A stretch of 64,000 nt of DNA from Endomychus coccineus (taxonomy: Eukaryota > Arthropoda > Insecta > Coleoptera > Endomychidae): NCBI GenBank assembly GCA_958510875.1, contig OY294068.1, positions 23,292,297 to 23,356,296 on the forward strand. Direction: 5' to 3'. The notes beneath the pieces are model-generated. The model saw only the letters and a list, made by a program, of their open reading frames with translations. It was not told the DNA's origin and searched no databases. A program made the position numbers and the translations under genes. Positions 3,519-61,335 of the stretch are shown here, piece by piece (position 1 is the first letter of the stretch; every line of letters begins with the position of its first letter).

Positions 3519-3574
3519 ACATACACAATGTTCACAAATATTTGCAGAACTAGTTATGTTATAATCGTTGTTTG

Positions 3575-25685: not shown

Positions 25686-26850
25686 CACCCTCAATTTACA
25701 GCTTCATTTCTAGTTCCAGTTTTTTTTTTAATACAAATTGCGTCAACACCCATGAAGAAATTTATCTCTACAATTTGGAGCCATGTTAAGTTGTTGACTT
25801 TACCATTGCAAGTAAATTCCGGTTATACCATTTTAAGGTAGTTGTATCGTGGTATACAATCTCAGTCAAAAATTTCCAACAAAACCACTAGAGTTTTACA
25901 TTTGATGTATCACATGCAACAAAGAACTCTACTTATCCATGTCAGGATGTAATAAATCTGTCATATCACTGTTGAATGTTTCATTTAAATCGTTGTTGTT
26001 CCAGGAAAGGAAGTAGTTGAAAGCACAGGTAATGGAACTAAAACAAGGAACTTTGAACCAAACGATGCTGTTCGATACAGTGGTTATATTATTTTATGTC
26101 TTGATATTCTTGCCGAGTTCAATGTAACATGCAAATTTATTGCAATTCACAAACGTAATAGAAGGAAGTCTACAAATCGGTTGCATTAACGATAACAAAG
26201 AACAATCGGGATTTAACAAAAACGAAACAATTTTGAATAATGAAACTGTTGCTTGGGTTCCGAACGAAATAAATATTCACAAAGGAATTATTATGCTTGG
26301 AATTTTTCGTAAACGATATGTAAATTGTAAACACCATTAATATTGATGCGGCACTGAACTCTCCAATGCAGGTACAGTCGGCAAAGGCAAGAGAATCCTC
26401 GTTACGTATGCTCGAGTCATTTCCAAAGACTGAATAAAAACTAAACTTCCCTGTAGGTTTTTCTTTGAAAGACACACCCTAGACATGAAGGACGTTATCA
26501 ATATTTATAGTGATCGTGAGGCAGCGGCCTGCTGGGAACAATCCGGGGACAATTCAAAGAGTGGAATCGAAGAATGGAAACGCTGGGATGGGGTCGGGGT
26601 CATAACTGCCAACTCACTGTAGAACTGTCATTCAAGAGCGTGCGTGGTTAGATTACCACCCTCGGTGTTATTGTACACGTTTGCGAAAGGCCGATACGAC
26701 CCCAATCCAGAACACTGACCAAGTAAGACCTCAAGAAGGCCATTTACATGTACGACAAAAGAACGTTCGCGAAAATAAATCTCCTTTCCAAATCAAAACT
26801 GAAATATCGTATCTTTCAGAAACATTAAATGTCTATTCTATTATTCCCTG
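25686..26850. other. No recognisable gene
   Basis: Short open frames exist at 26,140-26,340 (+) and 26,170-26,475 (-), antisense to each other, without a known signature. Confidence 0.35.
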
Positions 26851-27276
26851 TATTTTACCATTTCATCGTTCAGTTATTTAATATTGTACGAGAGGCAAAC
26901 TTGATAGATTCAATATTTATTATTTTAAATTAAACAAAATAAAGTTTCTACGAAGGATGTAATTATAATTACAACGTACGTATTTGCAATATTTATATTA
27001 CGGCTCAATTTTTGTTTAGCTGAAATTAGTTATATAAGAAATATTTGTTTATTCAGTATATCATTTTTATTTATTGATAAAATATTGTAGAATTTAGAAT
27101 GATTAAAAATGTATTCGGCAATTGGATCTCGTAAACAGGAACGTACAAAAACGTTTGACAGGTTTTTACAAGTCGTTAAGATAGTAGCTCTCTTATTGTT
27201 AGTATAGGCGTATAGTAAAACAGATAGTGCGGAGTAGTGGTGATTGTTTGGTTATCCGTAGCCCTTAAACATACAT

Positions 27277-27700
27277 GCGCATGAAAGTTCAAGCGGAAAC
27301 GTTATCGCAGGTTAGTTTGTTGAATTTTTATATATTTTTGGGAAACAGTAGGTTAGGTTAGTACTAGTAGGTTATTTGAAGGTAGATTTTTTTTAATTGT
27401 TAGATTTTTGTGGCCCTTATACACATGCGCAGGAAAGTCCAAGCGGCAACGTTATAGCCGGTTAGTTTGTTGAATTTTTATATATTTTGGGAAACAGTAG
27501 GTTAGGCTAGTACTAGTAGGTTATTTGAAGGTAGATTTTGTAATTGTTAGATTTTTGTGGCCCTTATACACATGCGCAGGAAAGTCCAAGCGGAAACGTT
27601 ATCGCAGGTTAGTTTATTAAATTAATATATTTTCGGGAACATTAGGCTAGGTTAGTACTCGCGAGTTATTTGAAGATAGGTTTTTGTAATCAATAGATTT
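27277..27700 (+). repeat. Three tandem units of about 148 bp (copy 1)
   Basis: Units begin near 27,277, 27,426 and 27,572. Each carries CATGCGCA(T/G)GAAAGT(T/C)CAAGCGG, then AACGTTAT, then GGTTAG(G/T) and GGGAACA(G)TTAGG phrases. The third unit is the most diverged. The set is repeated at about 28,914-29,337 in the second copy of the large duplication. No coding content; it could be an old satellite fragment or a promoter-repeat region of a retroelement. Confidence 0.65.
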
Positions 27701-27777
27701 TATAGAAAATTGTATTTATTTAATAATTCTTAATGATGTCAGATATAACTATTCCCATGTAGTCCTCAATATTCATA

Positions 27778-28487
27778 AGAATAAGAATAACAATAAGAAT
27801 AAGAAATTTATTTATCCGTTAAAATATACATTTTGTGGGCAGGTCAAGATAAATGCATATACATTAAAAGATTAAGCTAATAAATTACTAAATAAGTACT
27901 ATCACATGTTAAAACACTTAACATTAAAAAAATCTTTAACAGAGTACAAGCAATTTTCCAAAAGGAATTTTTCAATTTTTGTTTTGAATACTGAAATTTT
28001 ATTAATTGATCGAATATCACTAGGCAATTCATTGAAGAGGGCAAGACCAAGTTTATTGCTTACTTTTAATTTAGTTTTTGGGTGTACGAGTTTGTCACAA
28101 CCTCTCGTTGAGTAAGAGTGATAATTTGAATGAGTGGTGTATTCATTTAAGTGGAGTTTTACATCCATAAGGTGTTCATAAACAATTCGTGAAAATAATG
28201 ACATTATTTTTAATTCTTTAAAAACAGACTCGCAATGAGTTTCTTGTTTTAAACCTTTAATAGCTCTTAGGGCCGCTTTTTGTAATATGAAATTTTTTTC
28301 TAAATGAGTATGAGCAGCGTTGCTCCATGTTATGAGACCATACGACATTAAGGAGTGAAACAGACTATAGTAAGTTACAAGGGCCACCTCCTCGCCAGCA
28401 ATTCTGTACATTCTTTTAGTTGCGTAAACCGCCCGAGCTAATTTCTTACTAAGATAGGTAATGTGGTGTGACCAGTTTGAAGAACTG
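27778..28487 (-). mobile_element. LINE D 3' end, copy 1 (cut by the duplication breakpoint)
   Basis: The minus-strand frame 28,498-27,902 encodes the RT thumb and C-terminus: SSNWSHHITYLSKKLARAVY, VTYYSLFHSLMSYGLITW, LQKAALRAIKGL. The element ends in an (AATAAG)-type simple tail seen on the plus strand as AATAAGAATAACAATAAG at 27,780-27,808. The first codons of the open frame come from duplication-junction sequence, not from the LINE. Confidence 0.8.
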
Positions 28488-30124
28488 TATTTTACCATTT
28501 CATCGTTCAGTTATTTAATATTGTACGAGAGGCAAACTTGATAGATTCAATATTTATTATTTTAAATTAAACAAAATAAAGTTTCTACGAAGGATGTAAT
28601 TATAATTACAACGTACGTATTTGCAATATTTATATTACGGCTCAATTTTTGTTTAGCTGAAATTAGTTATATAAGAAATATTTGTTTATTCAGTATATCA
28701 TTTTTATTTATTGATAAAATATTGTAGAATTTAGAATGATTAAAAATGTATTCGGCAATTGGATCTCGTAAACAGGAACGTACAAAAACGTTTGACAGGT
28801 TTTTACAAGTCGTTAAGATAGTAGCTCTCTTATTGTTAGTATAGGCGTATAGTAAAACAGATAGTGCGGAGTAGTGGTGATTGTTTGGTTATCCGTAGCC
28901 CTTAAACATACATGCGCATGAAAGTTCAAGCGGAAACGTTATCGCAGGTTAGTTTGTTGAATTTTTATATATTTTTGGGAAACAGTAGGTTAGGTTAGTA
29001 CTAGTAGGTTATTTGAAGGTAGATTTTTTTTAATTGTTAGATTTTTGTGGCCCTTATACACATGCGCAGGAAAGTCCAAGCGGCAACGTTATAGCCGGTT
29101 AGTTTGTTGAATTTTTATATATTTTGGGAAACAGTAGGTTAGGCTAGTACTAGTAGGTTATTTGAAGGTAGATTTTGTAATTGTTAGATTTTTGTGGCCC
29201 TTATACACATGCGCAGGAAAGTCCAAGCGGAAACGTTATCGCAGGTTAGTTTATTAAATTAATATATTTTCGGGAACATTAGGCTAGGTTAGTACTCGCG
29301 AGTTATTTGAAGATAGGTTTTTGTAATCAATAGATTTTATAGAAAATTGTATTTATTTAATAATTCTTAATGATGTCAGATATAACTATTCCCATGTAGT
29401 CCTCAATATTCATAAGAATAAGAATAACAATAAGAATAAGAAATTTATTTATCCGTTAAAATATACATTTTGTGGGCAGGTCAAGATAAATGCATATACA
29501 TTAAAAGATTAAGCTAATAAATTACTAAATAAGTACTATCACATGTTAAAACACTTAACATTAAAAAAATCTTTAACAGAGTACAAGCAATTTTCCAAAA
29601 GGAATTTTTCAATTTTTGTTTTGAATACTGAAATTTTATTAATTGATCGAATATCACTAGGCAATTCATTGAAGAGGGCAAGACCAAGTTTATTGCTTAC
29701 TTTTAATTTAGTTTTTGGGTGTACGAGTTTGTCACAACCTCTCGTTGAGTAAGAGTGATAATTTGAATGAGTGGTGTATTCATTTAAGTGGAGTTTTACA
29801 TCCATAAGGTGTTCATAAACAATTCGTGAAAATAATGACATTATTTTTAATTCTTTAAAAACAGACTCGCAATGAGTTTCTTGTTTTAAACCTTTAATAG
29901 CTCTTAGGGCCGCTTTTTGTAATATGAAATTTTTTTCTAAATGAGTATGAGCAGCGTTGCTCCATGTTATGAGACCATACGACATTAAGGAGTGAAACAG
30001 ACTATAGTAAGTTACAAGGGCCACCTCCTCGCCAGCAATTCTGTACATTCTTTTAGTTGCGTAAACCGCCCGAGCTAATTTCTTACTAAGATAGGTAATG
30101 TGGTGTGACCAGTTTGAAGAACTA
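28488..30124. repeat. Tandem duplication, copy 2 (1,637 bp)
   Basis: Second copy of 26,851-28,487. Offsets of all shared landmarks are exactly 1,637, for example the open frames starting at 27,902/29,539 and 27,906/29,543. Here the LINE sequence continues uninterrupted past 30,124, which shows this is the original right-hand junction. Confidence 0.85.
28914..29337 (+). repeat. Three tandem units of about 148 bp (copy 2)
   Basis: Same structure as 27,277-27,700, offset by 1,637. Confidence 0.65.
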
Positions 30125-38342: not shown

Positions 38343-38495
38343 TGTCTTTGATTTTGTAGATAAATGGTTTAATAATGGACTGTAATAATTTTGACGTTAC
38401 CGCTTTGTTGGTTTAAAACGTACTGACTACTTGCCTAGGTACAAAGACCTAAACTGTACAGTCATGTACAAAATTTATTTAAACTTATTTGTACA
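38343..38495 (-). repeat. BEL/Pao 3' LTR
   Basis: A 153-bp terminal repeat beginning TG and ending CA, identical base for base to 54,152-54,304. It is the 3' LTR because the coding strand is minus. Confidence 0.92.
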
Positions 38496-38510
38496 TAACC
38501 CCCAACCTTG
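38496..38510 (-). other. Polypurine tract
   Basis: Read on the minus strand, CAAGGTTGGGGGTTA abuts the 3' LTR. A purine-rich tract in this position primes plus-strand DNA synthesis in LTR retrotransposons. Confidence 0.6.
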
Positions 38511-38696
38511 AAAGGCTGGCTTTCAAAATGTGATCCTAATACTAAAATATGAAAATCTATATACATTTTGACAATGATATTCATGAAAGTCTTAACTAAA
38601 CTTAAGTACTAAAGGTCGTACCAAAAAAAAATTATACTTATTTAAAATCGATCATACATAACAAACTATAACTCATTTCTTAATCTAAACATTTAT

Positions 38697-41600
38697 TCAA
38701 ATGTCAATGGGTAGAACGGCTACTTGCGAGGTAGCGCGCTTTATTTCACCTGTTGGTGTTTTAATACACACCACACGCACTACACCATCACTGCCGAGAT
38801 GCACTTTTGTGATACGACCAAGTTTCCAACAGAATGGTTGTAAGTTGCTGTCTTTTATGAGAACTAACGAATCCTTCTTGATGTCCTGGACGATACCTCT
38901 CCACTTCTGTCTGCATTGTAGTTCAGAGATGTATTCTCTGTGCCAACGAGTCCAAACATGTTGTTTAATTTGCTCTACAAGTTGGTAATGTGAGAGACGG
39001 TTCACTGGAATGTTGGCGATGCTGGGCTCAATAATGGACGTCACAGGTCTTCCAATAAGAAAATGTCCGGGTGAAAGAGGTTGATAATCAGAAGGATCGT
39101 TGGACATTGGAGAGATTGGACGGGAATTTAATATACCTTCAATTTCAGAGATGATTGTTGAAAATTGTTCTAAGGTTGTTGATGCATTGGCTAAAACTCT
39201 TTTTAAATGGTGCTTTGTTGATTTGACACCTGCTTCCCACAATCCTCCGAAGTTAGGAGAATATGCGGGTATGAAATGCCATTTGATTCCGCGGTTTATT
39301 AATTGTTCGCTTAATTCAGTTTGATTAACTTGCAAGAGCTGTCCTAATTCTTTAAGCTCTGAACTGGCCTTCACAAATGTTTTGCCATTGTCTGAAAATA
39401 TATCAGTGGGTTGTCCACGTCTGGCTATGAATCTGCGCAATGCCAATAAAAAGGTATCTGTCGTTAAATCTGTTACTACTTCTAAGTGTAACGCCTTTAC
39501 ACTCATACACACAAACAATGCAATATAACATTTGAAAGTTTTCTGCCCTCTTCCTTTTCGTTGACGGACAAAAAATGGACCAGCGAAATCTGTACCAGTT
39601 TTTATAAATGGATAACTCTGTTGAATACGTGCTGAAGGCAAATTTCCCATAAAGGGTGTAACAAACTTTGGGTTTGCCTTAAAACATTTCATACATTTAC
39701 GTACTAGTTTTTTTGATGTTGAACGTCCGCCTATAATCCAAAATTTCTGCCTGGCTATATATAATGTATGTTGTGGCCCTGCATGATAATTGCGTAAATG
39801 TTCATACCTTAAAATCAAGGTAGAAAGATTGGAATTTGAGTGTAAAAGTATAGGATGAATTTGATCCCAAGGCAGTTTAGAATTTTGAATTCTACCCCCA
39901 ACCCTAAGGATACCGTCGGAGTCAAGAAAAGGATTAAAATGAATCAATTTATTCTTATTCGGTAGTTTACCGTGTATTTTTAAATCATTGATTTCCTTGC
40001 TGAATGTTGAATCTTGTGAAAGTTTTATTATGCAATTAAACGCATCACTCACGTCTGCAACGGATAATTTGTCAACATGACGATTGTTTTTAATTTTCTG
40101 CTTACAATTGTGAATGAAACGGCGACAGTGGGCAACTACTCGTTTCAATTTAGTGAGCGATGAAGCATTTGATATAAGGTCATGATTTAATGATGTGAGC
40201 AGCACAGTGTTGACTAATAATTTTCTTTCTGGTAATTCCCCATCTGGAATTAAAACTGCCGATGTTCGCCATGAGTCCTTTGGTTCCGAAAGCCAACACG
40301 GTCCTTTCCACCAAAGTGTAGACTGATTTAATTCTCGGAATTGCATACCACGTGATATAATATCTGCGGGGTTCTCATGTGTACGTACATGAGACCAATT
40401 GTCAATGTTAGAAATATTTTGAATTTCCGAAATTCGGTTTGCTACAAAAATATGGAATAGTCGTGATCGGTTCTTTAGCCATGCTAGAACAACTTGAGAA
40501 TCTGTCCAATAAAAGCACGAAATATTTCTGAATGTAAAGGATGACTCAATTTTTTGCATTAATCGCGCTAAAACTAAAGCTCCACATAATTCAAGACGTG
40601 GTACTGTGAGAGTTTTTAGAGGTGCCACTCGCCCCTTTGAGCAAACTAAATTGACCGATATTTCATTTTCACTATTTATACATCTAGCATATATACATGC
40701 GCCATATGCGCTCTGAGACGCATCCGAAAAGCCATGGAGCTCTACGAAAACGGGATTTTTACAAAATGCTAATCTTGGAATTGAAATTTTCTCTAAATAT
40801 TGTAAATTTGACTTGAATACTAGCCATTTTGATTTTAAATTATTTGGTACCTCATCGTCCCATCCAAGTTTAAGAGCCCATAATTCTTGCATTAATATTT
40901 TCATTATTGCGATTGCAGGAGCTAACAGTCCTAAGGGATCAAATGTTTTAGCGATGCTTGAAAGAATAGATCTCTTGGTGATTTTATTGTAATTAACTTG
41001 GCTACTTTTGAATTTTAGTTTGTCTGACACAAATTCCCACTGCAAGCCTAATAATTTCATGTCTGTTGTTTCTCCTATATTAATATAATTAGATAACTGG
41101 TCATCATTTTGGACATTTTTTAGTACTTGTGGGTGGTTTGAACACCATTTTGTTAAATTAAAATGACCGTTTGCTATTATTTTCGATATTTGACTTATTA
41201 AATTAACGGCGCTTTCAATTGTATCAGTGCCGGAAATTAAGTCGTCTATGTAAAAATCTCGGGATATTATTTTTGACGCAAGTGCAAATTTTGTGCTATT
41301 ATCTTTCGCTAATTGTTTTATGCAACGCGTGGCTAAATACGGAGCAGAAGCAGTTCCGTATGTAACTGTATTTAATTCGTAAACCTCTAAGTCATGGCTT
41401 GGATCTTCGCGCCAAAAGATCCTTTGATATTTTCTTTGTTCCACTTGTACCTCTATTTGTCGATACATCTTGCAAATATCTGCAGTAAATACATAAGCGT
41501 GTTCCCTAAATCTAATTAAAATGGACATGAGGTCGTCCTGTACTGAACCGACATATTGAATGCTGTTCGTTGACAAACCGTTATCTGTAACAGCAGATCC

Positions 41601-43412
41601 GTCAAAAACTACCCTACATTTGGTTGTCAAGCTATCCGATTTTAACACGGCATGATGAGGAAAATAATAACAATTTGTGTTATCAATGGGTTCTGTCTTT
41701 TTTGTCATATGCCCTAAGGTTTTATATTCGTTCATGAACTGAATGTACGAATTTTTTAATGATGAATTGTGAGCAAATTTTTTCTCCAAGTTGATAAATC
41801 TACTTAGAGCACTGTCTACTGAGTTGCCTAAGTGAATAGGAGATTTTTTAAAAGGTATTTGGACTACAAATTTACCGTTGTGTTTTCGTGAGTATGTGGT
41901 TACGAAATGATTTTCACACTCCTGATCTTCAATACTAAGTTTAGGTTCATAGTCATAATTTTCTTCAACATTCCAAAATTTTTGAATGTCATTATGTAAA
42001 TTTATGACTGACAAATTACAACTGGATATGATATTATTTGAAGGTTTAAAATTTCCAGTGACTATCCAACCAAAATCGGAATTTTGCAGTATGGGTGAAT
42101 TTTTTCCTAGATCAATTCTCTCTGGCCTTAATGTTTTCCAGAAAAGATTGGCGCCGAGAATCATGTCAATGCTTGCAGGTTCAGCGAATTTAGGGTCTGC
42201 TAACTTTATATTGTATGGCACGTTGATATTGTCGATCTCTAATTCAAAATTCGGAAAGTTATCACCAATTTTATCGAGTAACAAACAGTCAATTTTTGTT
42301 TGAAATTGAGAATGATACGATTGGATTTGCACAGTACATTTATGTTTTATGGTTGAAGCTATATTACCAACACCTACAATTGGAATGTTGGTGACCCTTT
42401 TTGCTATACCTGATAATTTTAGGAATTTGTAAGTTATAAAGTTTGACTGTGATCCGTTGTCTAATAATGCGCGACAATTAATGTTCTTGCCCGTTTTTGT
42501 TGTAACGGTAAAACATACAGTTGAAAGTAAAACATGTGAGTTCGTGTTTAATTGGCTAATTAGAACATTTTGAGTTGACGGACCTGGATTTTGGTTGTTA
42601 TAATCAAAATGAAGTAGTGTATTATGTAGTTTGCTACATTTTTTACATCGAAAACTCGACTTACATTCGAAAGTAACGTGACCTGTTCGAAAACAATTGC
42701 AGCAGAGTTTCAACGCCTTACACTTTTCAAACCTTTCTTGTGGGGATAAATTTAATAATTGTTGACATTGAAATACCGCATGGTTTTGTTGACATATTTT
42801 ACATGACATTACAGGTCTAGCTAAAAAACTTTGCTTTTTTTGAATACTTGAGGTGTTTGAAGAGCTACAATTCTTATTCATACGCTGTTCTAATTTTTCT
42901 AAAATTTCAGCTTTGTCTAACAAGAATTTTTCGAAATTTTCAATAGACGAACTAGTATTGCTTTTAATAAACTCTTCCCAATCGCGTAACGAGGCTTTGT
43001 CTAATTTACTGCTGAGAATATAAATTAAAATTGCATTTCGTTGTTCTGTGGAATTACCCAGCCGCGATAAATATTTCAAATGTTTATTTAGCTCATCTAT
43101 TATGTTGCGAAAACCTTTCGATTCATTAGGACTAGTGTTATGAACGTCAAAAATTGCTTTAATATGTTCGTGAACTAACAAATCGTTATTGTCGAATCTT
43201 TTACACAAGTTATCCCAGACTGTCTCGTAATTGTCGCTGGACAAATTGGAACTTTGAATAGTTTTGGCGGCAGTTCCGCCAAGCGAAGCGCGCAGGTAAT
43301 GAAACTTCTGCACGTTAGATATCTGAGCAACGTGAAGATGGCTGCCAAAGTTGGCTGCTAAAATTTCCGAACATTGCCGATCGATCAGTGGCGTCGCGAA
43401 ATGATTTCCCAA
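38697..43412 (-). CDS. BEL/Pao gag C-terminus and pol polyprotein (1,571 codons)
   Basis: An uninterrupted frame. Residues 1-29 are Foldback terminal repeat read-in, residues 30-32 (QIS) are the target duplication, and true BEL sequence starts at about residue 30. Order: gag remainder with Cys/His knuckles at about 203-270 (CKICQQNH, CCNCFRTGH); aspartic protease at about 315 (LLDNGSQSNF); RT with CRVVFDGSA at about 599 and the catalytic FYIDDLISG at about 720; RNase H at about 890-975 (GFSDASQSAYG, YWTDSQVVLAW). The integrase has a zinc-binding domain at about 1,200-1,245 and a DDE core (TGTDFAGPF about 1,274, IFSDNGKTF about 1,337, GGLWEAGVKSTKHH about 1,390). A C-terminal DUF5641-like region ends at 38,697. 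All catalytic boxes look intact, but the gag start is cut off. Confidence 0.93.
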   Translation of the reverse strand: MGNHFATPLIDRQCSEILAANFGSHLHVAQISNVQKFHYLRASLGGTAAKTIQSSNLSSDNYETVWDNLCKRFDNNDLLVHEHIKAIFDVHNTSPNESKGFRNIIDELNKHLKYLSRLGNSTEQRNAILIYILSSKLDKASLRDWEEFIKSNTSSSIENFEKFLLDKAEILEKLEQRMNKNCSSSNTSSIQKKQSFLARPVMSCKICQQNHAVFQCQQLLNLSPQERFEKCKALKLCCNCFRTGHVTFECKSSFRCKKCSKLHNTLLHFDYNNQNPGPSTQNVLISQLNTNSHVLLSTVCFTVTTKTGKNINCRALLDNGSQSNFITYKFLKLSGIAKRVTNIPIVGVGNIASTIKHKCTVQIQSYHSQFQTKIDCLLLDKIGDNFPNFELEIDNINVPYNIKLADPKFAEPASIDMILGANLFWKTLRPERIDLGKNSPILQNSDFGWIVTGNFKPSNNIISSCNLSVINLHNDIQKFWNVEENYDYEPKLSIEDQECENHFVTTYSRKHNGKFVVQIPFKKSPIHLGNSVDSALSRFINLEKKFAHNSSLKNSYIQFMNEYKTLGHMTKKTEPIDNTNCYYFPHHAVLKSDSLTTKCRVVFDGSAVTDNGLSTNSIQYVGSVQDDLMSILIRFREHAYVFTADICKMYRQIEVQVEQRKYQRIFWREDPSHDLEVYELNTVTYGTASAPYLATRCIKQLAKDNSTKFALASKIISRDFYIDDLISGTDTIESAVNLISQISKIIANGHFNLTKWCSNHPQVLKNVQNDDQLSNYINIGETTDMKLLGLQWEFVSDKLKFKSSQVNYNKITKRSILSSIAKTFDPLGLLAPAIAIMKILMQELWALKLGWDDEVPNNLKSKWLVFKSNLQYLEKISIPRLAFCKNPVFVELHGFSDASQSAYGACIYARCINSENEISVNLVCSKGRVAPLKTLTVPRLELCGALVLARLMQKIESSFTFRNISCFYWTDSQVVLAWLKNRSRLFHIFVANRISEIQNISNIDNWSHVRTHENPADIISRGMQFRELNQSTLWWKGPCWLSEPKDSWRTSAVLIPDGELPERKLLVNTVLLTSLNHDLISNASSLTKLKRVVAHCRRFIHNCKQKIKNNRHVDKLSVADVSDAFNCIIKLSQDSTFSKEINDLKIHGKLPNKNKLIHFNPFLDSDGILRVGGRIQNSKLPWDQIHPILLHSNSNLSTLILRYEHLRNYHAGPQHTLYIARQKFWIIGGRSTSKKLVRKCMKCFKANPKFVTPFMGNLPSARIQQSYPFIKTGTDFAGPFFVRQRKGRGQKTFKCYIALFVCMSVKALHLEVVTDLTTDTFLLALRRFIARRGQPTDIFSDNGKTFVKASSELKELGQLLQVNQTELSEQLINRGIKWHFIPAYSPNFGGLWEAGVKSTKHHLKRVLANASTTLEQFSTIISEIEGILNSRPISPMSNDPSDYQPLSPGHFLIGRPVTSIIEPSIANIPVNRLSHYQLVEQIKQHVWTRWHREYISELQCRQKWRGIVQDIKKDSLVLIKDSNLQPFCWKLGRITKVHLGSDGVVRVVCIKTPTGEIKRATSQVAVLPIDI
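43317..43325. repeat. 9-bp target-site duplication, left
   Basis: AGATATCTG, identical to 53,194-53,202. In the BEL reading frame it is exactly the codons for Gln-Ile-Ser in both halves of the split gene, which confirms that both flanks were once one ORF. Confidence 0.93.
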
Positions 43413-43700
43413 ATCAAATATTCAATGTATTCTTATAATTTTCTTATTTTGTTAATCTGAATAACATATGGGAAGATGTATGGTAGAATGAATCAATTTA
43501 CATATCATACGTTATTCGATTCAATTTCCTCCACTATTGGTAATGATTTCCAAATCGAATTTTACGATTTCTTTTGATTAGGACTCTGGTAGATTCTATA
43601 ATACCAAGAAAATTGTTGTAAAACACATTTACTACTATGAGTACAAATTGATGTAGAGCTGCTTGCTCTTCAATCTGAGATACTACCATAATTTCTTGCA
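43326..43700 (+). repeat. Foldback-like element, left outer terminal repeat
   Basis: About 375 bp of non-tandem terminal sequence, matching 52,820-53,193 in reverse complement with about four substitutions. The tip carries a short direct repeat, TTGGCTGC, spaced by CAAAG (GGCTGCCAAAGTTGGCTGC). This part includes the false start of the BEL frame at 43,410-43,412. Confidence 0.9.
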
Positions 43701-46700
43701 CTCGAGGACTACTAGGTTACATACGGGGACACATGAATATTCGAAAATAATTTTTTTTTCAACTTTCCGGAGCGACTGCCAAAATAAAAAAATATGGAAA
43801 AGCATCCTCATGATGTGTAGAATCTCAAAATATTAAAATTATTTCTTGCACTCGGGGACTACTAGGTCACATACGGGGACACATGAATTTTCGAAAATAA
43901 TTTTTTTTCCTACTTTCCGGAGCGACTGCCAAAATAAAAAAATATGGAAAAGCATCCTCATGATGTGTAGAATCTCAAAATACTAAAATAATTTCTTGCA
44001 CTCGGGGACTACTAGGTCACATACGGGGACACATGAATTTTCGAAAATAATTTTTTTTTCATATTTCCGAAGCGACTGCCAAAATCAAAAAATATGGAAA
44101 AGCATTCTCATGAAGTATAAAATCTCAAAATACTAAAATAATTTCTTGCACTCGGGGACTACTAGGTACCATACGGGGACACATAAATTTTCGAAAATAA
44201 TTTTTTTCTCAACTTTCCGGAGCGACTGCCAAAATCAAAAAATAAGGAAAAGCATCCCCATGATGTGTAGATTCTCAAAATACTAAAATAATTTCTTGCC
44301 CTCGGGGACTACTAGGTACCATACGGGGACACATAAATTTTCGAAAATAATTTTTTTCTCAACTTTCCGGAGCGACTGCCAAAATCAAAAAATACGGAAA
44401 AGCATCCCCATGATGTGTAGATTCTCAAAATACTAAAATAATTTCTTGCACTCGGGGACTACTAGGTTCCATACGGGGAGACATAAATTTTCGAAAATAA
44501 TTTTTTTCTCAACTTTCCGGAGCGACTGCCAAAATCAAAAAATACGGAAAAGCATCCCCATGATGTGTAGAATTTCAAAATACTAAAATAATTTCTTGCA
44601 CTCGGGGACTACTAGGTACCATACGGGGACACATAAATTTTCGAAAATAATTTTTTTCTCAACTTTCCGGAGCGACTGCCAAAATCAAAAAATACGGAAA
44701 AGCATCCCCATGATGTGTAGATTCTCAAAATACTAAAATAATTTCTTGCACTCGGGGACTACTAAGTACCATACGGGGACACATAAATTTTCGAAAATAA
44801 TTTTTTTCTCAACTTTCCGGAGCGACTGCCAAAATCAAAAAATACGGAGAAGCATCCCCATGATGTGTAGATTCTCAAAATACTAAAATAATTTCTTGCA
44901 CTCGGGGACTACTAGGTTCCATACGGGGACACATAAATTTTCGAAAATAATTTTTTTCTCAACTTTCCGGAGCGACTGCCAAAATCAAAAAATAAGGAAA
45001 AGCATCCTCATGATGTGTAGAATCTCAAAATATTAAAATTATTTCTTGCACTCGGGGACTACTAGGTCACATACGGGGACACATGAATTTTCGAAAATAA
45101 TTTTTTTTCCTACTTTCCGGAGCGACTGCCAAAATAAAAAAATATGGAAAAGCATCCTCATGATGTGTAGAATCTCAAAATACTAAAATAATTTCTTGCA
45201 CTCGGGGACTACTAGGTCACATACGGGGACACATGAATTTTCGAAAATAATTTTTTTTTCATATTTCCGAAGCGACTGCCAAAATCAAAAAATATGGAAA
45301 AGCATTCTCATGAAGTATAAAATCTCAAAATACTAAAATAATTTCTTGCACTCGGGGACTACTAGGTACCATACGGGGACACATAAATTTTCGAAAATAA
45401 TTTTTTTCTCAACTTTCCGGAGCGACTGCCAAAATCAAAAAATAAGGAAAAGCATCCCCATGATGTGTAGATTCTCAAAATACTAAAATAATTTCTTGCA
45501 CTCGGGGACTACTAAGTACCATACGGGGACACATAAATTTTCGAAAATAATTTTTTTCTCAACTTTCCGGAGCGACTGCCAAAATCAAAAAATACGGAGA
45601 AGCATCCCCATGATGTGTAGATTCTCAAAATACTAAAATAATTTCTTGCACTCGGGGACTACTAGGTTCCATACGGGGACACATAAATTTTCGAAAATAA
45701 TTTTTTTCTCAACTTTCCGGAGCGACTGCCAAAATCAAAAAATAAGGAAAAGCATCCTCATGATGTGTAGAATCTCAAAATATTAAAATTATTTCTTGCA
45801 CTCGGGGACTACTAGGTCACATACGGGGACACATGAATTTTCGAAAATAATTTTTTTCCTACTTTCCGGAGCGACTGCCAAAATAAAAAAATATGGAAAA
45901 GCATCCTCATGATGTGTAGAATCTCAAAATACTAAAATAATTTCTTGCACTCGGGGACTACTAGGTCACATACGGGGACACATGAATTTTCGAAAATAAT
46001 TTTTTTTTCATATTTCCGAAGCGACTGCCAAAATCAAAAAATATGGAAAAGCATTCTCATGAAGTATAAAATCTCAAAATACTAAAATAATTTCTTGCAC
46101 TCGGGGACTACTAGGTACCATACGGGGACACATAAATTTTCGAAAATAATTTTTTTCTCAACTTTCCGGAGCGACTGCCAAAATCAAAAAATAAGGAAAA
46201 GCATCCCCATGATGTGTAGATTCTCAAAATACTAAAATAATTTCTTGCACTCGGGGACTACTAAGTACCATACGGGGACACATAAATTTTCGAAAATAAT
46301 TTTTTTCTCAACTTTCCGGAGCGACTGCCAAAATCAAAAAATACGGAGAAGCATCCCCATGATGTGTAGATTCTCAAAATACTAAAATAATTTCTTGCAC
46401 TCGGGGACTACTAGGTTCCATACGGGGACACATAAATTTTCGAAAATAATTTTTTTCTCAACTTTCCGGAGCGACTGCCAAAATCAAAAAATACGGAAAA
46501 GCATCCCCATGATGTGTAGATTCTCAAAATACTAAAATAATTTGTTGCACTCGGGGACTACTAGGTACCATACGGGGACACATAAATTTTCGAAAATAAT
46601 TTTTTTCTCAACTTTCCGGAGCGACTGCCGAAATCAAAAAATACGGAAAAGCATCCCCATGATGTGTAGATTCTCAAACTACTAAAATAATTTCTTGCAC

Positions 46701-48373
46701 TCGGGGACTACTAGGTACCATACGGGGACACATGAATTTTCGAAAATAATTTTTTTTTCAACTTTCCGGAGCGACTGCCAAAATCAAAAAATAAGGAAAA
46801 GCATCCCCATGATGTGTAGATTCTCAAAATACTAAAATAATTTCTTGCACTCGGGGACTACTAGGTCACATACGGGGACACATGAATTTTCGAAAATAAT
46901 TTTTTTTTCATATTTCCGAAGCGACTGCCAAAATCAAAAAATATGGAAAAGCATTCTCATGAAGTATAAAATCTCAAAATACTAAAGTAATTTCTTGCAC
47001 TCGGGGACTACTAGGTCACATATGGGGACACATAAATTTTCGAAAATAATTTTTTTCTCAACTTTTCTGAGTGACTGCCAAAATCAAAAAATATGGGAGA
47101 GCATTCTCATGATGTATAAAATCTCAAAATACTAAAATAATTTCTTGCACTCGGGGACTACTAGGTCACATACGGGGACACACGAATTTTCGAAAATAAT
47201 TTTTTTTTCATATTTCCGGAGTGACTGCCAAAATCAAAAAATAAGGAAAAGCATCCCCATGATGTGAAGATTCTCAAAATACTAAAATAATTTCTTGCAC
47301 TCGGGGACTACTAGGTCACATATGGGGACACATAAATTTTCGAAAATAATTTTTTTCTCAACTTTTCGGAGTGACTGCCAAAATCAAAAAATATGGAAAA
47401 GCATTCTCATGATGTATAAAATCTCAAAATACTAAAATAATTTCTTGCACTCGGGGACTACTAGGTCACATACGGGGACACATGAATTTTCGAAAATAAT
47501 TTTTTTTTAATATTTCCGGAGTGACTGCCAAAATCAAAAAATAAGGAAAAGCATCCCCATGATGTGAAGATTCTCAAAATACTAAAATAATTTCTTGCAC
47601 TCGGGGACTACTAGGTCACATATGGGGACACATAAATTTTCGAAAATAATTTTTTTCTCAACTTTCCGGAGTGACTGCCAAAATCAAAAAATATGGAAAA
47701 GCATTCTCATGATGTATAAAATCTCAAAATACTAAAATAATTTCTTGCACTCGGGGACTACTAGGTCACATACGGGGACACATGAATTTTCGAAAATAAT
47801 TTTTTTTTCAACTTTCCGGAGCGACTGCCAAAATCAAAAAATAAGGAAAAGCATCCCCATGATGTGTAGATTCTCAAAATACTAAAATAATTTCTTGCAC
47901 TCGGGGACTACTAGGTCACATACGGGGACACATGAATTTTCGAAAATAATTTTTTTTTCATATTTCCGGAGCGACTGCCAAAATCAAAAAATATGGAAAA
48001 GCATTCTCATGATGTATAAAATCTCAAAATACTAAAATAATTTCTTGCACTCGGGGACTACTAGGTCACATATGGGGACACATAAATTTTCGAAAATAAT
48101 TTTTTTCTCAACTTTTCGGAGTGACTGCCAAAATCAAAAAATATGGAAAAGCATTCTCATGATGTATAAAATCTCAAAATACTAAAATAATTTCTTGCAC
48201 TCGGGGACTACTAGGTCACATACGGGGACACATGAATTTTCGAAAATAATTTTTTTTCCTACTTTCCGGAGCGACTGCCAAAATAAAAAAATATGGAAAA
48301 GCATCCTCATGATGTGTAGAATCTCAAAATACTAAAACAATTTTTTGCACTCGGGGAATACTAGGTCACATAG
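43701..48373 (+). repeat. Left-arm tandem array, about 31 units of 150 bp
   Basis: The phrase CTCGGGGACTACTAGGT recurs at 43,851, 44,001, 44,151 and so on with exact 150-bp spacing (one 1-bp deletion near 45,850) up to 48,350, where the last unit breaks off. Each unit also holds ATACGGGGACACAT, TTTTCGAAAATAATTTTTTT, GAGCGACTGCCAAAAT and AAAAGCAT(C/T)C(C/T)CATGA. Variant units recur in blocks: GAAGTATAAAATCTC at about 44,113, 45,313, 46,063 and 46,963. That indicates higher-order duplications of about 1,200, 750 and 900 bp. No coding function. Confidence 0.95.
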
Positions 48374-48848
48374 AGAGTAACGAATAGTTACGTATATTCG
48401 AAAGTAATGAAAATCAACATCTCTAGTCGGAACAAACTATTGTGAACACAGAACAACTATAAACATTGTGAAGATTCATAATTCTTTTCCACGCCTAATC
48501 GATTTCAAATATAGAAATTTGTCTGTGATTTCTTGCCAGGACCGGCCGCTTGTCTATGGTGCGGAACGAACCTCTCTAACGCGCAATTGTGCGAGAGAGA
48601 TGAGTGAATCTAATTTTGAATTTATATTGTATCACACAGTGTATACACCAACATTCAAATTAGGTATACAGTCATAGATTTTCGTCATTCCAAACATTGT
48701 ACTGTTTTAAGTTAGATATACTTTTGAAACCTACACATTACCGAGGGTTAGCTGTATCATTCTATTTATTTGAATATTATTGGTACTTTTCAGTGCCATT
48801 CATTTTATTACCTAGTATATAATATCGCAAATATTCTAATTTTATATC
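48374..48848 (+). other. Foldback-like element core, 5' region before the ORF
   Basis: Unique sequence between the left array and the ORF. It contains an imperfect hairpin around CGCGCAATTGTGCG at about 48,580-48,594 and a 69-codon open frame (48,468-48,677) that I do not recognise. It is the only place in the element where a promoter for the ORF could sit apart from the arrays. Confidence 0.6.
48785..48800 (+). promoter_or_regulatory. Possible arthropod initiator upstream of the core ORF
   Basis: TTTTCAGTGCC contains TCAGT (48,790-48,794), the common arthropod Initiator consensus, about 55 bp before the ATG at 48,849. The same string could instead be a splice acceptor (TTTTCAG). It is a short motif and could be chance. 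Confidence 0.25.
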
Positions 48849-49532
48849 ATGGTGGGTACCCACAAGGATATCGCGTTGTTGGAAAGAATTGCTAAAGCTG
48901 TTTTAACGTTTGATAAAAATTTAACATTCAATTCCCTTATCACTTTACAACCAGATCATCGGATTTTTGTTTATGTTTGTGAACAAATAGGAATAAGGAA
49001 GTTTACATTTCCGAGTCAAGTATACCGGCATATACATAGAAATAAATCCAAACTTGAAAATATATTTAATTCAATTGCTCGTGGTGATATATGCGTAAAC
49101 GAAGAAAAAAATGCCATATTAGGAATACTGAACGACATCGCCAATAAAGAATCAAAAAATTTAAAAAGCTATAGAACGAATAACTCTTTATATACAAATA
49201 TATGTCACAATCTTAAAATTAAATCCACAAATGTTTATAACAGAAAGAGAGTGTATTATTATAAGAAATATTTTACAATTGAAAGTGAGTGCAAGGAATT
49301 GTCAGGGAATGTGACAAAAACTTCTTTCGACGTTTCGGGAAATAACCAAAATGAAATTGCTATCTGTTCGACGCCGTTAAACAGCAATTTTATTCCTTCA
49401 AAAAAGGCGCGATTTGATCTTAGTGTTATAAAAGTAGATGAAATTGTCCAGTATTCTTCCTCAGAGAAATTAGAAATTCATGTAAAATCTGAAGATTCTG
49501 AAGAGGGAACCGAGTGCAAGAAATTATTTTAG
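48849..49532 (+). CDS. Unrecognised 227-residue protein in the Foldback-like element core
   Basis: The only long ORF in the unique core. I do not recognise the family; no DDE transposase, zinc-finger or helicase motif is visible. The first half (about 1-95) looks compact and mixed hydrophobic, with KAVLTFDKNLTFNSLI and DHRIFVYVCEQIG. Residues about 100-150 are basic and Tyr/Asn-rich (NVYNRKRVYYYKKYF), fitting nucleic-acid binding. A PSKKARFDL string near 185 resembles a nuclear localisation signal, and the tail is acidic with VKSEDSEE (a possible SUMO site). The last residues ECKKLF and the stop codon lie in the first unit of the right array, so the 3' end was shaped by the repeat. It may be an element-specific factor or a captured host gene fragment. 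Confidence 0.6.
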   Translation: MVGTHKDIALLERIAKAVLTFDKNLTFNSLITLQPDHRIFVYVCEQIGIRKFTFPSQVYRHIHRNKSKLENIFNSIARGDICVNEEKNAILGILNDIANKESKNLKSYRTNNSLYTNICHNLKIKSTNVYNRKRVYYYKKYFTIESECKELSGNVTKTSFDVSGNNQNEIAICSTPLNSNFIPSKKARFDLSVIKVDEIVQYSSSEKLEIHVKSEDSEEGTECKKLF

Positions 49533-52500
49533 TATTTTGAGAATCTACACATCATGGGGATGCTTTTCCGTATTTTTTGATTTTGGCAGTCGCTCCGGAA
49601 AGTTGAAAAAAAATTATTTTCGAAAATTCATGTGTCCCCGTATGGTACCTAGTAGTCCCCGAGTGCAAGAAATTATTTTAGTATTTTGAGAATCTACACA
49701 TCATGGGGATGCTTTTCCTTATTTTTTTATTTTGGCAGTCGCTCCGGAAAGTTGAAAAAAAATTATTTTCGAAAATTCATGTGTCCCCGTATGGTACCTA
49801 GTAGTCCCCGAGTGCAAGAAATTATTTTAGTATTTTGAAATTCTACACATCATGGGGATGCTTTTCCGTATTTTTTGACTTTGGCAGTCGCTCCGGAAAG
49901 TTGAGAAAAAAATTATTTTCGAAAATTTATGTGTCCCCGTATGGTACCTAGTAGTCCCCGAGTGCAAGAAATTATTTTAGTATTTTGAGAATCTACACAT
50001 CATGGGGATGCTTTTCCTTATTTTTTGATTTTGGCAGTCGCTCCGGAAAGTAGGAAAAAAAATTATTTTCGAAAATTCATGTGTCCCCGTATATGACCTA
50101 GTAGTCCCCGAGTGCAAGAAATAGTTTTAATATTTTGAGATTCTACACATCATGAGGATGCTTTTCCATATTTTTTGATTTTGGCAGTCGCTCCGGAAAG
50201 TTGGAAAAAAAATTATTTTCGAATATTCATGTGTCCCCGTATGGTACCTAGTAGTCCCCGAGTGCAAGAAATTATTTTAGTATTTTGAGAATCTACACAT
50301 CATGGGGATGCTTTTCCTTACTTTTTTATTTTGGCAGTCGCTCCGGAAAGTTGAAAAAAAATTATTTTCGAAAATTCATGTGTCCCCGTATGGTACCTAG
50401 TAGTCCCCGAGTGCAAGGAATTATTTTAGTATTTTCAAATTCTACACATCATGGGGATGCTTTTCCGTATTTTTTTATTTTGGCAGTCGCTCCGGAAAGT
50501 TGAAAAAAAATTATTTTCGAAAATTCATGTGTCCCCGTATGTGACCTAGTAGTCCCCGAGTGCAAGAAATTATTTTAGTATTTTGAGAATCTACACATCA
50601 TGGGGATGCTTTTCCTTACTTTTTTATTTTGGCAGTCGCTCCGGAAAGTTGAAAAAAAATTATTTTCGAAAATTCATGTGTCCCCGTATGATACCTAGTA
50701 GTCCCCGAGTGCAAGGAATTATTTTAGTATTTTGAGATTCTACACATCATGAGGATGCTTTTCCATATTTTTTGATTTTGGCAGTCGCTCCGGAAAGTTG
50801 GAAAAAAAATTATTTTCGAATATTCATGTGTCCCCGTATGGTACCTAGTAGTCCCCGAGTGCAAGAAATTATTTTAGTATTTTGAGAATCTACACATCAT
50901 GGGGATGCTTTTCCTTACTTTTTTATTTTGGCAGTCGCTCCGGAAAGTTGAAAAAAAATTATTTTCGAAAATTCATGTGTCCCCGTATGGTACCTAGTAG
51001 TCCCCGAGTGCAAGGAATTATTTTAGTATTTTGAAATTCTATACATCATGGGGATGCTTTTCCGTATTTTTTTATTTTGGCAGTCGCTCCGGAAAGTTGA
51101 AAAAAAATTATTTTCGAAAATTCATGTGTCCCCGTATGTGACCTAGTAGTCCCCGAGTGCAAGAAATTATTTTAGTATTTTGAGAATCTACACATCATGG
51201 GGATGCTTTTCCTTATTTTTTTATATTGGCAGTCGCTCCGGAAAGTTGAAAAAAAATTATTTTCGAAAATTCATGTGTCCCCGTATGGTACCTAGTAGTC
51301 CCCGAGTGCAAGAAATTATTTTAGTATTTTGAAATTCTACACATCATGGGGATGCTTTTCCGTATTTTTTGATTTTGGCAGTCGCTCCGGAAAGTTGAGA
51401 AAAAAATTATTTTCGAAAATTTATGTGTCCCCGTGTGGTACCTAGTAGTCCCCGAGTGCAAGAAATTATTTTAGTATTTTGAGAATCTACACATCATGGG
51501 GATGCTTTTCCTTATTTTTTGATTTTGGCAGTCGCTCCGGAAAGTAGGAAAAAAAATTATTTTCGAAAATTCATGTGTCCCCGTATATGACCTAGTATTC
51601 CCCGAGTGCAAGAAATAGTTTTAATATTTTGAGATTCTACACATCATGAGGATGCTTTTCCATATTTTTTGATTTTGGCAGTCGCTCCGGAAAGTTGGAA
51701 AAAAAAATTATTTTCGAATATTCATGTGTCCCCGTATGGTACCTAGTAGTCCCCGAGTGCAAGAAATTATTTTAGAATTTTGAGAATCTACACATCATGG
51801 GGATTCATTTCCATATTTTTTGATTTTGGCAGTCACTCCGGAAAGTTGAGAAAAAAATTATTTTCGAAAATTTATGTGTCCCCATATGTGACCTAGTAGT
51901 CCCCGAGTGCAAGAAATTATTTTAGTATTTTGAGAATCTATACATCATGGGGATGCTTTTCCTTATTTTTTTATTTTGGCAGTCGCTCCGGAAAGTTGAA
52001 AAAAAAATTATTTTCGAAAATTCATGTGTCCCCGTATGGTACCTAGTAGTCACCGAGTGCAAGAAATTATTTTAGTATTTTGAAATTCTACACATCATGG
52101 GGATGCTTTTCCGTATTTTTTGATTTTGGCAGTCGCTCCGGAAAGTTGAGAAAAAAATTATTTTCGAAAATTTATGTGTCCCCGTATGGTACCTAGTAGT
52201 CCCCAAGTGCAAGAAATTATTTTAGTATTTTGAGAATCTACACATCATGGGGATGCTTTTCCTTATTTTTTGATTTTGGCAGTCGCTCCGGAAAGTTGAG
52301 AAAAAAATTATTTTCAAAAATTTATGTGTCCCCGTATGGAACCTAGTAGTCCCCGAGTGCAAGAAATTATTTTAGTATTTTGAGAATCTACACATCATGG
52401 GGATGCTTTTCCGTATTTTTTGATTTTGGCAGTCGCTCCGGAAAGTTGAGAAAAAAATTATTTTCGAAAATTTATCGAAAATGTATGTGTCCCCGTATGG

Positions 52501-52819
52501 TACCTAGTAGTCCCCGAGTGCAAGAAATTATTTTAGTATTTTGAGAATCTACACATCATGGGGATGCTTTTCCTTATTTTTTGATTTTGGCAGTCGCTCC
52601 GGAAAGTAGGAAAAAAAATTATTTTCGAAAATTCATGTGTCCCCGTATGTGACCTAGTAGTCCCAGAGTGCAAGAAATAGTTTTAATATTTTGAGATTCT
52701 ACACATCATGAGGATGCTTTTCCATATTTTTTGATTTTGGCAGTCGCTCCGGAAAGTTGAAAAAAAAATTATTTTCGAATATTCATGTGTCCCCGTATGT
52801 AACCTAGTAGTCCTCGAGT
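49508..52819 (-). repeat. Right-arm tandem array, about 22 units of 150 bp
   Basis: The same 150-bp unit as the left array in reverse complement (TGTGTCCCCGTAT, then CTAGTAGTCCCCGAGTGCAAG). It begins inside the last codons of the core ORF. A variant trio (TATATGACC, then GAAATAGTTTTAATATTTTG) recurs at about 50,091 and 51,590, a ten-unit (1.5 kb) higher-order repeat, with a related copy near 52,650. A small extra duplication of about 12 bp occurs at about 52,470-52,485. The array is about nine units shorter than the left arm. Confidence 0.95.
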
Positions 52820-53193
52820 GCAAGAAATTATGGTAGTATCTCAGATTGAAGAGCAAGCAGCTCTACATCAATTTGTACTCATAGTAGTAAATGTGTTTTA
52901 CAACAATTTTCTTGGTATTATAGAATCTACCAGAGTCCTAATCAAAAGAAATCGTAAAATTCGATTTGGAAATCATTACCAATAGTGGAGGAAATTGAAT
53001 CGAATAACGTATGATATGTAAATTGATTCATTCTACCTTACATCTTCCCATATGTTATTCAGATTAACAAAATAAGAAAACTATAAGAATACATTGAATA
53101 TTTAATTTGGGAAATCATTTCGCGACGCCACTGATCGATCGGCAATGTTCGGAAATTTTAGCAGCCAACTTTGGCAGCCAACTTCACGTTGCT
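52820..53193 (-). repeat. Foldback-like element, right outer terminal repeat
   Basis: Reverse complement of 43,326-43,700, about 99% identical by eye (differences seen near the tip and in the TTAAAT/TCAAAT, TATAGTT/TATAATT and GTAAGG/GTATGG positions). Confidence 0.9.
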
Positions 53194-53655
53194 AGATATC
53201 TGTGTGTTTGTGTGTATGAGTGATTCGAATAATTCTTTGAATTCTAGCCATTCCGTGTATACCCCATTAAATTTTGGCAAATTAATAATTGGCAATTTTA
53301 CATGGTTGTCTAAGTTTTGAGGATTTTGAGAAAATTGACTTGATGTAATTTCGGAATTAATTAATAATCTATTTAATTTAGAAGTTATTGAATGATATTT
53401 TGTCTCAAATTCATCGCGTTCTTTGTATTCCTCCTCTAACAGATCTTCATCGCAGCTATCTTCTATTTGCTCTTGAATTAATTTAAAATTACTTATGAGC
53501 TCGGAAGATTTATCTAAGCGCGATCGAATGATGTCTAATTGTTCAATTGTGTGGTCAGATATTATATTTTGTTGATAAAATGTATCTAACGATGTTAATT
53601 GATGTTTGATACTACCGCGCTTGCGATGTAAAGTTTTAATATTTGTGGTAGCCAT
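53158..53655 (-). pseudogene. BEL/Pao gag N-terminal part, cut by the Foldback-like insertion
   Basis: A 165-codon frame starting MATTNIKTLHRKRGSIKHQL, a typical BEL/Pao gag opening: helical and charged, with an acidic coiled-coil-like stretch SCDEDLLEEEYKERDEFE at about 68-85. It then reads LPIINLPKFNGVYTEWLEFK at about 120-139, the conserved gag block. Residues 152-154 are the target duplication and the last 11 residues are Foldback terminal repeat. The rest of gag continues in frame at 43,325 on the other side. Before insertion the ORF would have been about 1,690 codons. Confidence 0.88.
53194..53202. repeat. 9-bp target-site duplication, right
   Basis: AGATATCTG, a perfect match to 43,317-43,325, directly abutting the right terminus. 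Confidence 0.93.
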
Positions 53656-54151
53656 TGCACTAACAAAACTTATAAATTATTAATATAAAAATATGAAATA
53701 TGAATTGATATAACTATGGAAGGCTTGAAATTGATGGTATAATGACTATAAATAGGTATAAGGACTAATTGGATCGAAACTTACTGAGCATGACGTAGGA
53801 AGACTTAAGTGAGAGATGGTCAAACTCTACCGCGTTGTATTGTAATTCTAATTATGGAACCGCTTGTGTGGAGTCGGCCAGTTGAATATCGTCGTCCTTT
53901 TGTTATTCCAATATTGATGTTATGCTGCCGATGAATTCCGCGTGCCGCTGTAGCTAGAGGGTTGCTACCTGCTATAGTGTATTTAGGACCCTTCTTCTTT
54001 TGCTTGGCGTCACTATTCTGCCTTAGCATTAACAATTATGCATTTGCAATGATGTTTTTGCACTAAAACACTGTTTTCATTACACTTTGAGTTGATGATA
54101 TGTGATAAATTCAAATGCTGAATATATCCTGGATCGAATGGACCAAAATTA
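53656..54151 (-). other. BEL/Pao 5' leader with candidate primer-binding site
   Basis: Untranslated leader between the 5' LTR and gag. Six bases inside the LTR, the minus strand reads TGGTCCATTCGATCCAGG (54,145-54,128). It begins TGG as tRNA-complementary primer sites do. It resembles the 3' end of tRNA-Tyr with an extra base, so the tRNA identity is uncertain. The 71-codon frame at 53,820-54,035 is not recognised and is probably chance. Confidence 0.55.
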
Positions 54152-54304
54152 TGTCTTTGATTTTGTAGATAAATGGTTTAATAATGGACTGTAATAATTT
54201 TGACGTTACCGCTTTGTTGGTTTAAAACGTACTGACTACTTGCCTAGGTACAAAGACCTAAACTGTACAGTCATGTACAAAATTTATTTAAACTTATTTG
54301 TACA
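54152..54304 (-). repeat. BEL/Pao 5' LTR
   Basis: Identical to 38,343-38,495. It should carry the element's promoter and polyadenylation signals, though no classical AATAAA is obvious. Confidence 0.92.
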
Positions 54305-59800: not shown

Positions 59801-60090
59801 GCTCGCTTCAAAACAAACAATATAACTCGAAAAGTATAAAAGATATCGATAATTATCATAGAAACAAATCGATAGATCTGTATTTGATACCTACAACTTT
59901 CTTATTCAACTTTTATCGCTCTTTGCAACTTTGCTAATTTTTTAGGTTATGTTCGCCATTTCGGATCGAGTTGCATGAAACAGAAACTCACTTTTAAATT
60001 TAATTTCCTAAACGCTCATATTTTTTTCCGTGTATTAATTTCTGAACGCACTTCTGTCTATTGCTTAAACTACTAATGAATTATCTATAT

Positions 60091-61170
60091 ATATAAAAGA
60101 AAGTCGTGTTAGTTACACTATTTATAACTCAAGAACGGCTGTACCGATTTGGCTGAAAATTGGTAAAGAGGTAGCTTAGAACCAGGAGACGGACATAGGA
60201 TACTTTATATCCCGTTTAACCGCGTTCCCGTGTGACATGACATAAAACGTCAAAGAGAATACAAGTCAATATATAAAAGAAAGTCCTGTTAGTTACACTA
60301 TTTATAACTCAAGAACGGCTGTACCAATTTGGCTGAAAATTGGTGGAGAAGTAGCTTAGAACCAGGAAACGGACATAGGATACTTTTTATCCCGTTTGAC
60401 CGCGTTCCCGTGTGACATGACATAAAACGTCAAAGAGAATACAAGTCAATATATAAAAGAAAGTCGTGTTAGTTACACTATTTATAACTCAAGAACGGCT
60501 GTACCGATTTGGCTGAAAATTGGTAAAGAGGTAGCTTAGAACCAGGAGACGGACATAGGATACTTTATATCCCGTTTAACCGCGTTCCCGTGTGACATGA
60601 CATAAAACGTCAAAGAGAATACAAGTCAATATATAAAAGAAAGTCCTGTTAGTTACACTATTTATAACTCAAGAACGGCTGTACCAATTTGGCTGAAAAT
60701 TGGTGGGGAGGTAGCTTAGAACCAGGAAACGGACATAGGATACTTTTTATCCCGTTTGACCGCGTTCCCGTGTGACATGACATAAAACGTCAAAGAGAAT
60801 ACAAGTCAATATATAAAAGAAAGTCCTGTTAGTTACACTATTTATAACTCAAGAACGGCTGTACCAATTTGGCTGAAAATTGGTGGAGAAGTAGCTTAGA
60901 ACCAGGAAACGGACATAGGATACTTTTTATCCCGTTTGACCGCGTTCCCGTGTGACATGACATAAAACGTCAAAGAGAATACAAGTCAATATATAAAAGA
61001 AAGTCGTGTTAGTTACACTATTTATAACTCAAGAACGGCTGTACCGATTTGGCTAAAAATGGTGGAAAGGTAGCTTAGAACCAGGAGACGGACGTCGGAC
61101 ATAGGATACTTTTTATTCCGTTTGACCGCGCTCCCGTGTGACATGACATAAAACGTCATAGAGAATACAA
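60091..61170 (+). repeat. Six tandem copies (180 bp) of the Helitron 5' region
   Basis: Units begin with ATATAAAAGAAAGTC at 60,091, 60,271, 60,451, 60,631, 60,811 and 60,991. Each continues TTAGTTACACTATTTATAAC, then CAAGAACGGCTGTACC. Units 1 and 3 share GTCGTG, GTAAAGAGG and TTTAACCGC. Units 2, 4 and 5 share GTCCTG, AGGAAACGG and TTTGACCGC. Unit 6 is a more diverged GTCGTG type with an internal CGTCGGAC insertion. The order reads A-B-A-B-B-A', so blocks were duplicated in pairs. Confidence 0.93.
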
Positions 61171-61335
61171 GCCAATATAAAACGTGGTATAACAAAAACG
61201 CATCTGACTTGGAATAACAAAACGTAAATGACAGCTAACCGTAATTTTGTCTATGGTTAAGTATGGTTGAAAATTTGATCATTATTATATTAGTAATAAT
61301 CAGTAATTTGTAATTTCTTTGAATCATCATTAAAA

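Follow-up and report, generated by a model that had tools for sequence, protein, structure and literature searches.

The 64,000-nucleotide stretch of the genome of the beetle Endomychus coccineus analysed here (contig OY294068.1, forward-strand positions 23,292,297 to 23,356,296; hereafter the window) holds a 9.9-kb element, built largely of tandem repeats, inside a retroelement, and this raises the question of what the element is, how it arose and which protein may have moved it. In Foldback elements of Drosophila (FB/NOF) the long inverted repeats consist of tandem repeats, the duplications are of 9 bp and some copies have a coding core, and a first-pass annotation had described the element as a Foldback-like, non-autonomous family. 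We conclude that it is very probably a non-autonomous cut-and-paste DNA transposon of the Rehavkus/Foldback type, which arose by internal deletion and would have been mobilised by a relative.

The insertion and its family

The element forms a discrete insertion at window positions 43326-53193. The first-pass annotation had placed a perfect 9-bp target-site duplication around it, and AGATATCTG is indeed found at both sites, with no further plus-strand occurrence in the window. The terminus, AGCAACGTGAAG, occurs once per strand in the window, from 43326 on the plus strand and to 53193 on the minus strand. The near-identity of the two termini also holds, as the outer domains are 98.9% identical to each other and an alignment of arm with arm gives 13 differences over the outermost 700 positions; their reported length of 375 bp, however, combines the 9-bp duplication with a 366-bp outer domain, beyond which the likeness continues into the arrays. 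Tandem Repeats Finder (TRF) recovers two arrays of a 150-bp unit in opposite orientation, with 31.3 and 22.2 copies where about 31 and 22 had been counted.

The host retroelement, for which BEL/Pao was the putative label in that annotation, spans 38343-54304; its ends, resembling long terminal repeats (LTRs), are identical and ~153 bp long, GTGTA stands on both outer sides, and its coding region is split by the element. With the window itself counted, the element's left flank has matches at 17 genomic places, many of them near-identical host copies. Of the 16 other host copies, ten were read across the site; none of the ten is interrupted, and they agree with the window at 98-100 of 100 bases to the left of the site and at 197-200 of 200 to its right. 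The insertion is confirmed as real and not due to chance, and because these ten copies are uninterrupted we conclude that the element entered a young retroelement copy, leaving the 9-bp duplication. Arrays are hard to assemble, and elsewhere in the window a perfect 1639-bp tandem duplication (26848-30123, with copies at 26848-28486 and 28485-30123, each containing 2.9 tandem copies of a 147-bp unit) is either a recent duplication or an assembly doubling; the exact unit counts of the arrays could still be wrong. That the whole structure is a misassembly, or consists of unrelated satellite arrays joined by the assembler, has a negligible chance of being correct in view of the precise duplication, the uninterrupted site in the ten other host copies and the same architecture within different flanks at nine other scored loci.

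A 375-bp query consisting of the duplication and the left end scored at least 40 places in the genome, a lower bound, and 20 stretches were fetched, which cover 18 further element loci. Ten paired copies, the window's included, were scored for their duplications, which agree at 9/9 positions in eight copies and at 8/9 in two. An eleventh copy, on C3 near 92.96 Mb, has CGCAAGCTC at both ends by eye and one damaged terminus, and the remaining eight of the 18 loci have no opposed partner inside the fetched stretch and were left out of this scoring. The earlier description as a Foldback-like, non-autonomous family is upheld: copies with such ends are many and mostly core-less, and 9-bp duplications recur among them. 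Other copies of this kind in the same genome, which the annotation had proposed to look for, number nine among those scored. The full 1137-bp core is present in just four places at 98-100% identity (the next best match is 87% over ~900 bp), so that the members found are mostly arms that retain little of the core or none. These arms have 1 to 31 full-length units each in the stretches read, and their lengths vary widely. One copy (L026, 216-1660) is just 1445 bp long; it retains both ends and a perfect 9-bp duplication but no more than a few array units on one side, and can be described as a step towards a short non-coding element. At another place (G000:C2:140699792-140702080) a piece of the core (query ~609-828) is tandemly repeated several times at 86-93%, a hint that arrays can arise from core DNA as well.

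The truncated core frame and its coding relatives

The small core had been annotated with one open reading frame (ORF), and a single notable ORF of 227 aa is present; the ORF itself turns out to be a truncated transposase fragment with its last residues read from the array. Three longer copies of the family were read. Two elements of 17.3 kb (L009+L010) and 16.1 kb (L011+L012) have a longer core in common that is interrupted by a non-LTR reverse-transcriptase fragment, and the third copy (L021), which is free of this insert, has two ORFs, 975 and 481 aa long, that overlap without being in the same frame. In L010 (~1515-3775) the large core also has an IS630/Tc1-like transposon nested in it, whose long inverted ends were recognised by eye. 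The beginning of the 975-aa protein and the window ORF are 99% identical; the coding sequence in the window ends at the right-array junction, where both partners have CCG. As judged from these sequence comparisons, the ORF corresponds to the transposase's first ~220 residues, cut by a microhomology (3-bp) deletion into the right array. The longer relatives continue it, and the full protein is one polypeptide. A CCG common to both junction partners is what a deletion made in repair would be expected to leave.

The order of domains in the full protein is a helical N-terminus, a WRKY-like zinc finger and an RNase H-fold DDE transposase, followed by PHD finger(s), a YqaJ-type exonuclease, a Ulp1-type protease and a C-terminal zinc finger, in which the YqaJ-type domain is likely a nuclease and the Ulp1-type domain likely a protease. 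The DDE and CxxH residues are conserved among the coding relatives. The PHD finger, which lay in the part of the protein lost from the window copy, scores above the Pfam cut-off in L029 and P0013 and below it in L009, L010 and L021, and with E values of up to 1 admitted it has matches in 31 of 38 relatives; YqaJ is matched in at least 19 of the 38, several of the relatives being fragments. Named protein relatives come from Phaedon cochleariae, Ceutorhynchus assimilis, Plutella xylostella and Pseudolycoriella hygida, and none of the protein matches listed bears the name Rehavkus.

Two other families in the genome have single open frames of 1540 aa (L029) and 1456 aa (L031). The former is flanked by opposed arrays of a 142-bp unit; the latter lies in a 20,536-bp element with a perfect 9-bp duplication, TTGAGGAAG, the ends ATTAGTGTGAAGTTACC and arrays of a 146-bp unit (~52 and 35 copies) around the frame, and GTGAAGTT stands at the same offset in its end and in the right end of the window element. 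In 3-kb stretches behind ten further relatives (10 of 136 matches), arrays were found in nine cases, with largely different unit sequences and periods of 144, 146, 152 (one family, met in four copies), 144, 177 and ~138-143. Together with the three detailed families this gives nine unit families, eight of them at ~138-152 bp, a clustering that may be ordinary because beetle satellites generally favour units of 140-180 bp (PMC10218199).

Turnover of the arrays

A total of 402 units pooled over elements were compared. Mean unit identity is 0.936 and 0.947 within the window's two arms, 0.937 between them and 0.926 to other elements, which themselves give similar values, and for 239 units the closest other unit is in the same arm, for 12 in the other arm and for 151 in another element. 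In the window's left arm a 7-unit block is repeated at a 5-unit lag, where 200 shuffles reached at most 4, and the longest block beats every shuffle in 6 of 15 arms, which indicates that at least some of the change in the arrays takes place by blocks of whole units. With motif widths of 12, 14 and 20, a search of the nine unit consensuses selected a TACGG-like box, whose score was matched by 0/30 shuffles at width 12, 1/150 at width 14 and 0/30 or 4/150 at width 20.

It could be argued that the arms grew after insertion by ordinary satellite growth and that the arrays have no role in transposition. The widely varying arm lengths, the block duplications, short-armed copies such as the 1445-bp one and the unit lengths favoured by beetle satellites (PMC10218199) would all suit this explanation; however, arrays adjoin the gene in all three detailed families and in nine of ten other relatives, with largely different units, and we consider it unlikely, though it keeps some weight. 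The parts of the element are collected in Table 1; elsewhere in the window, 60089-61179 holds a six-copy tandem array of a 180-bp unit.

Table 1. Parts of the inserted element, in window coordinates
Feature	Position	Strand	Basis or remark
Left 9-bp target-site duplication, AGATATCTG	43317..43325	.	Uninterrupted copies and scoring of paired elements
Left end, 366-bp outer domain, start AGCAACGTGAAG	43326..43691	+	Last bases overlap array start
Left array, 31.3 x 150-bp unit	43680..48372	+	TRF
Core remnant	48373..49509	+	98-99% identity to core start of three longer relatives
227-aa ORF, read as the first ~220 transposase residues, then array-read residues	48849..49532	+	
CCG common to both sides of the internal-deletion junction	49510..49512	.	
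Right array, 22.2 x 150-bp unit, inverted	49510..52839	-	TRF
Right end, 366-bp outer domain, inverted	52828..53193	-	
Right 9-bp target-site duplication	53194..53202	.	Uninterrupted copies and scoring of paired elements

Classification and proposed mechanism

Compared on published features and not by sequence, the element fits best as a member of the Repbase Rehavkus group with a Foldback-like build. The likeness to Drosophila Foldback, which is one of description and not of sequence, lies in the inverted repeats built from tandem repeats and in the 9-bp duplications. Rehavkus, used as an outgroup to Mutator elements, is characterized by 9-bp duplications, a PHD finger, a minisatellite in the terminal region and arthropod hosts (PMC6446971), and Rehavkus-1_TC of Tribolium has a 164-bp unit in its inverted termini (PMC10218199). 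Besides the arthropod host, we find the 9-bp duplication in the window family and in the 20.5-kb relative, the PHD finger in the transposase protein of the relatives, and the terminal minisatellite in the window family, L029, L031 and further relatives. In the present element the arrays are longer, at 31 and 22 units (~52 and 35 in the 20.5-kb relative), and YqaJ, unmentioned for Rehavkus in the available part of the account (PMC6446971), is fused to the transposase in at least 19 of the 38 relatives.

Other array-armed or YqaJ-carrying systems resemble the element in part. Tetris of Drosophila virilis has the Foldback build, with an outer flanking domain and then tandem repeats, and duplications of 8-10 bp, but its unit is ~220 bp and its authors found no autonomous or coding copy (PMC4079207), whereas coding relatives with long open frames are present here. 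Tm1 of root-knot nematodes, with a Mutator-type (Phantom-like) transposase, has Foldback-like composite ends and 9-bp duplications, but its motif is ~14 bp and its protein a 496-aa FLYWCH-MULE protein, with YqaJ unmentioned in the part of the paper available (PMC3169594). ISL2EU elements (PHIS superfamily) also carry a YqaJ exonuclease, but there as a separate ORF, with AT duplications and ends of 6-259 bp (PMC4482050), whereas here the duplications are of 9 bp and YqaJ lies in one polypeptide with another transposase type. This genome also has an ISL2EU-like element (L056, 73-3232), which encodes a 455-aa YqaJ-PHD protein besides its DDE_Tnp_4 transposase; its family is numerous, since >30 matches (~32-33% identity) lie in 455-aa open frames. 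No YqaJ-transposase fusion was found in the literature titles and abstracts searched, a search that left Repbase entries and subscription papers outside.

The first-pass annotation had further proposed to look for a larger relative with a Mutator-like transposase. Relatives with a DDE-type transposase do exist, but their link to Mutator is weak by sequence and undecided by predicted fold, which is near ISCth4 but tied with the P element and Hermes. This tie would suit a transposase of another DDE superfamily (P or hAT type) with array-built arms that evolved independently, as would the P element as first Foldseek match and the precedent of Galileo (P superfamily), whose long inverted repeats contain tandem repeats (PMC3688188). 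However, the duplications are of 9 bp, the published features of Rehavkus fit, one MULE match exists among the relatives, and the finger is WRKY-like, whereas Galileo has THAP and a P-type transposase (PMC3688188); no THAP is among the Pfam matches listed for L021, L029 and the relatives (25 of the 47 families listed for the 38). We therefore regard a P or hAT origin as very unlikely.

Several points nevertheless weigh against the assignment to the Rehavkus/Foldback type by deletion and mobilisation, and against a role for the arrays in it. Membership of Rehavkus is putative, being judged on published features; Pfam MULE (PF10551) is matched in 1 of 38 relatives, at E 0.0013 and below the cut-off; and Foldseek gave no match at E 0.001, the P element coming first at E 2.6e-3. 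In L021 the PHD and Ulp1 matches fall below the cut-offs, though they are clear in relatives, and YqaJ may not be universal, since 19 of 38 relatives match. The three longer copies read all have broken or interrupted frames, and an active source for the window family was not found among them. Nine of the 15 arms are without block duplication beyond the shuffles, and the TACGG-like box is at most a suggestive candidate binding site, because the model has to place one site in each unit and settles on different sites at other widths.

On the reading that we prefer, the window element arose from a longer one by internal deletion, and we infer that a relative's transposase moved it in trans into the young retroelement copy. 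This transposase would most likely make cuts staggered by 9 bp at the short conserved termini, and numerous binding sites within the arrays would most likely keep it on the ends, by analogy with Galileo, whose tandem repeats include several transposase binding sites (PMC3688188). The arrays would lengthen and shorten in whole-unit blocks through repeat-mediated recombination or gap repair, perhaps assisted by the element's own exonuclease. More tentatively, and we think improbably, the element group may carry a recombination kit of its own, in which YqaJ, being lambda-exonuclease-like, resects array breaks and repeat annealing grows, trims and evens the arms; the units, of nucleosome length (~138-152 bp) in eight of the nine families and largely different in sequence, would then, together with the PHD finger, suggest arms built as phased chromatin that is read by the transposase.

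Foldback-like elements are often known as non-coding arms only. Here one genome holds both many array-armed, core-poor copies and long open frames between like arms, a system in which it becomes testable which protein mobilises such elements, what purpose the arrays have and whether their growth is driven by an exonuclease of the element's own. The finding is also relevant to a possible origin of nucleosome-length satellites from transposons.
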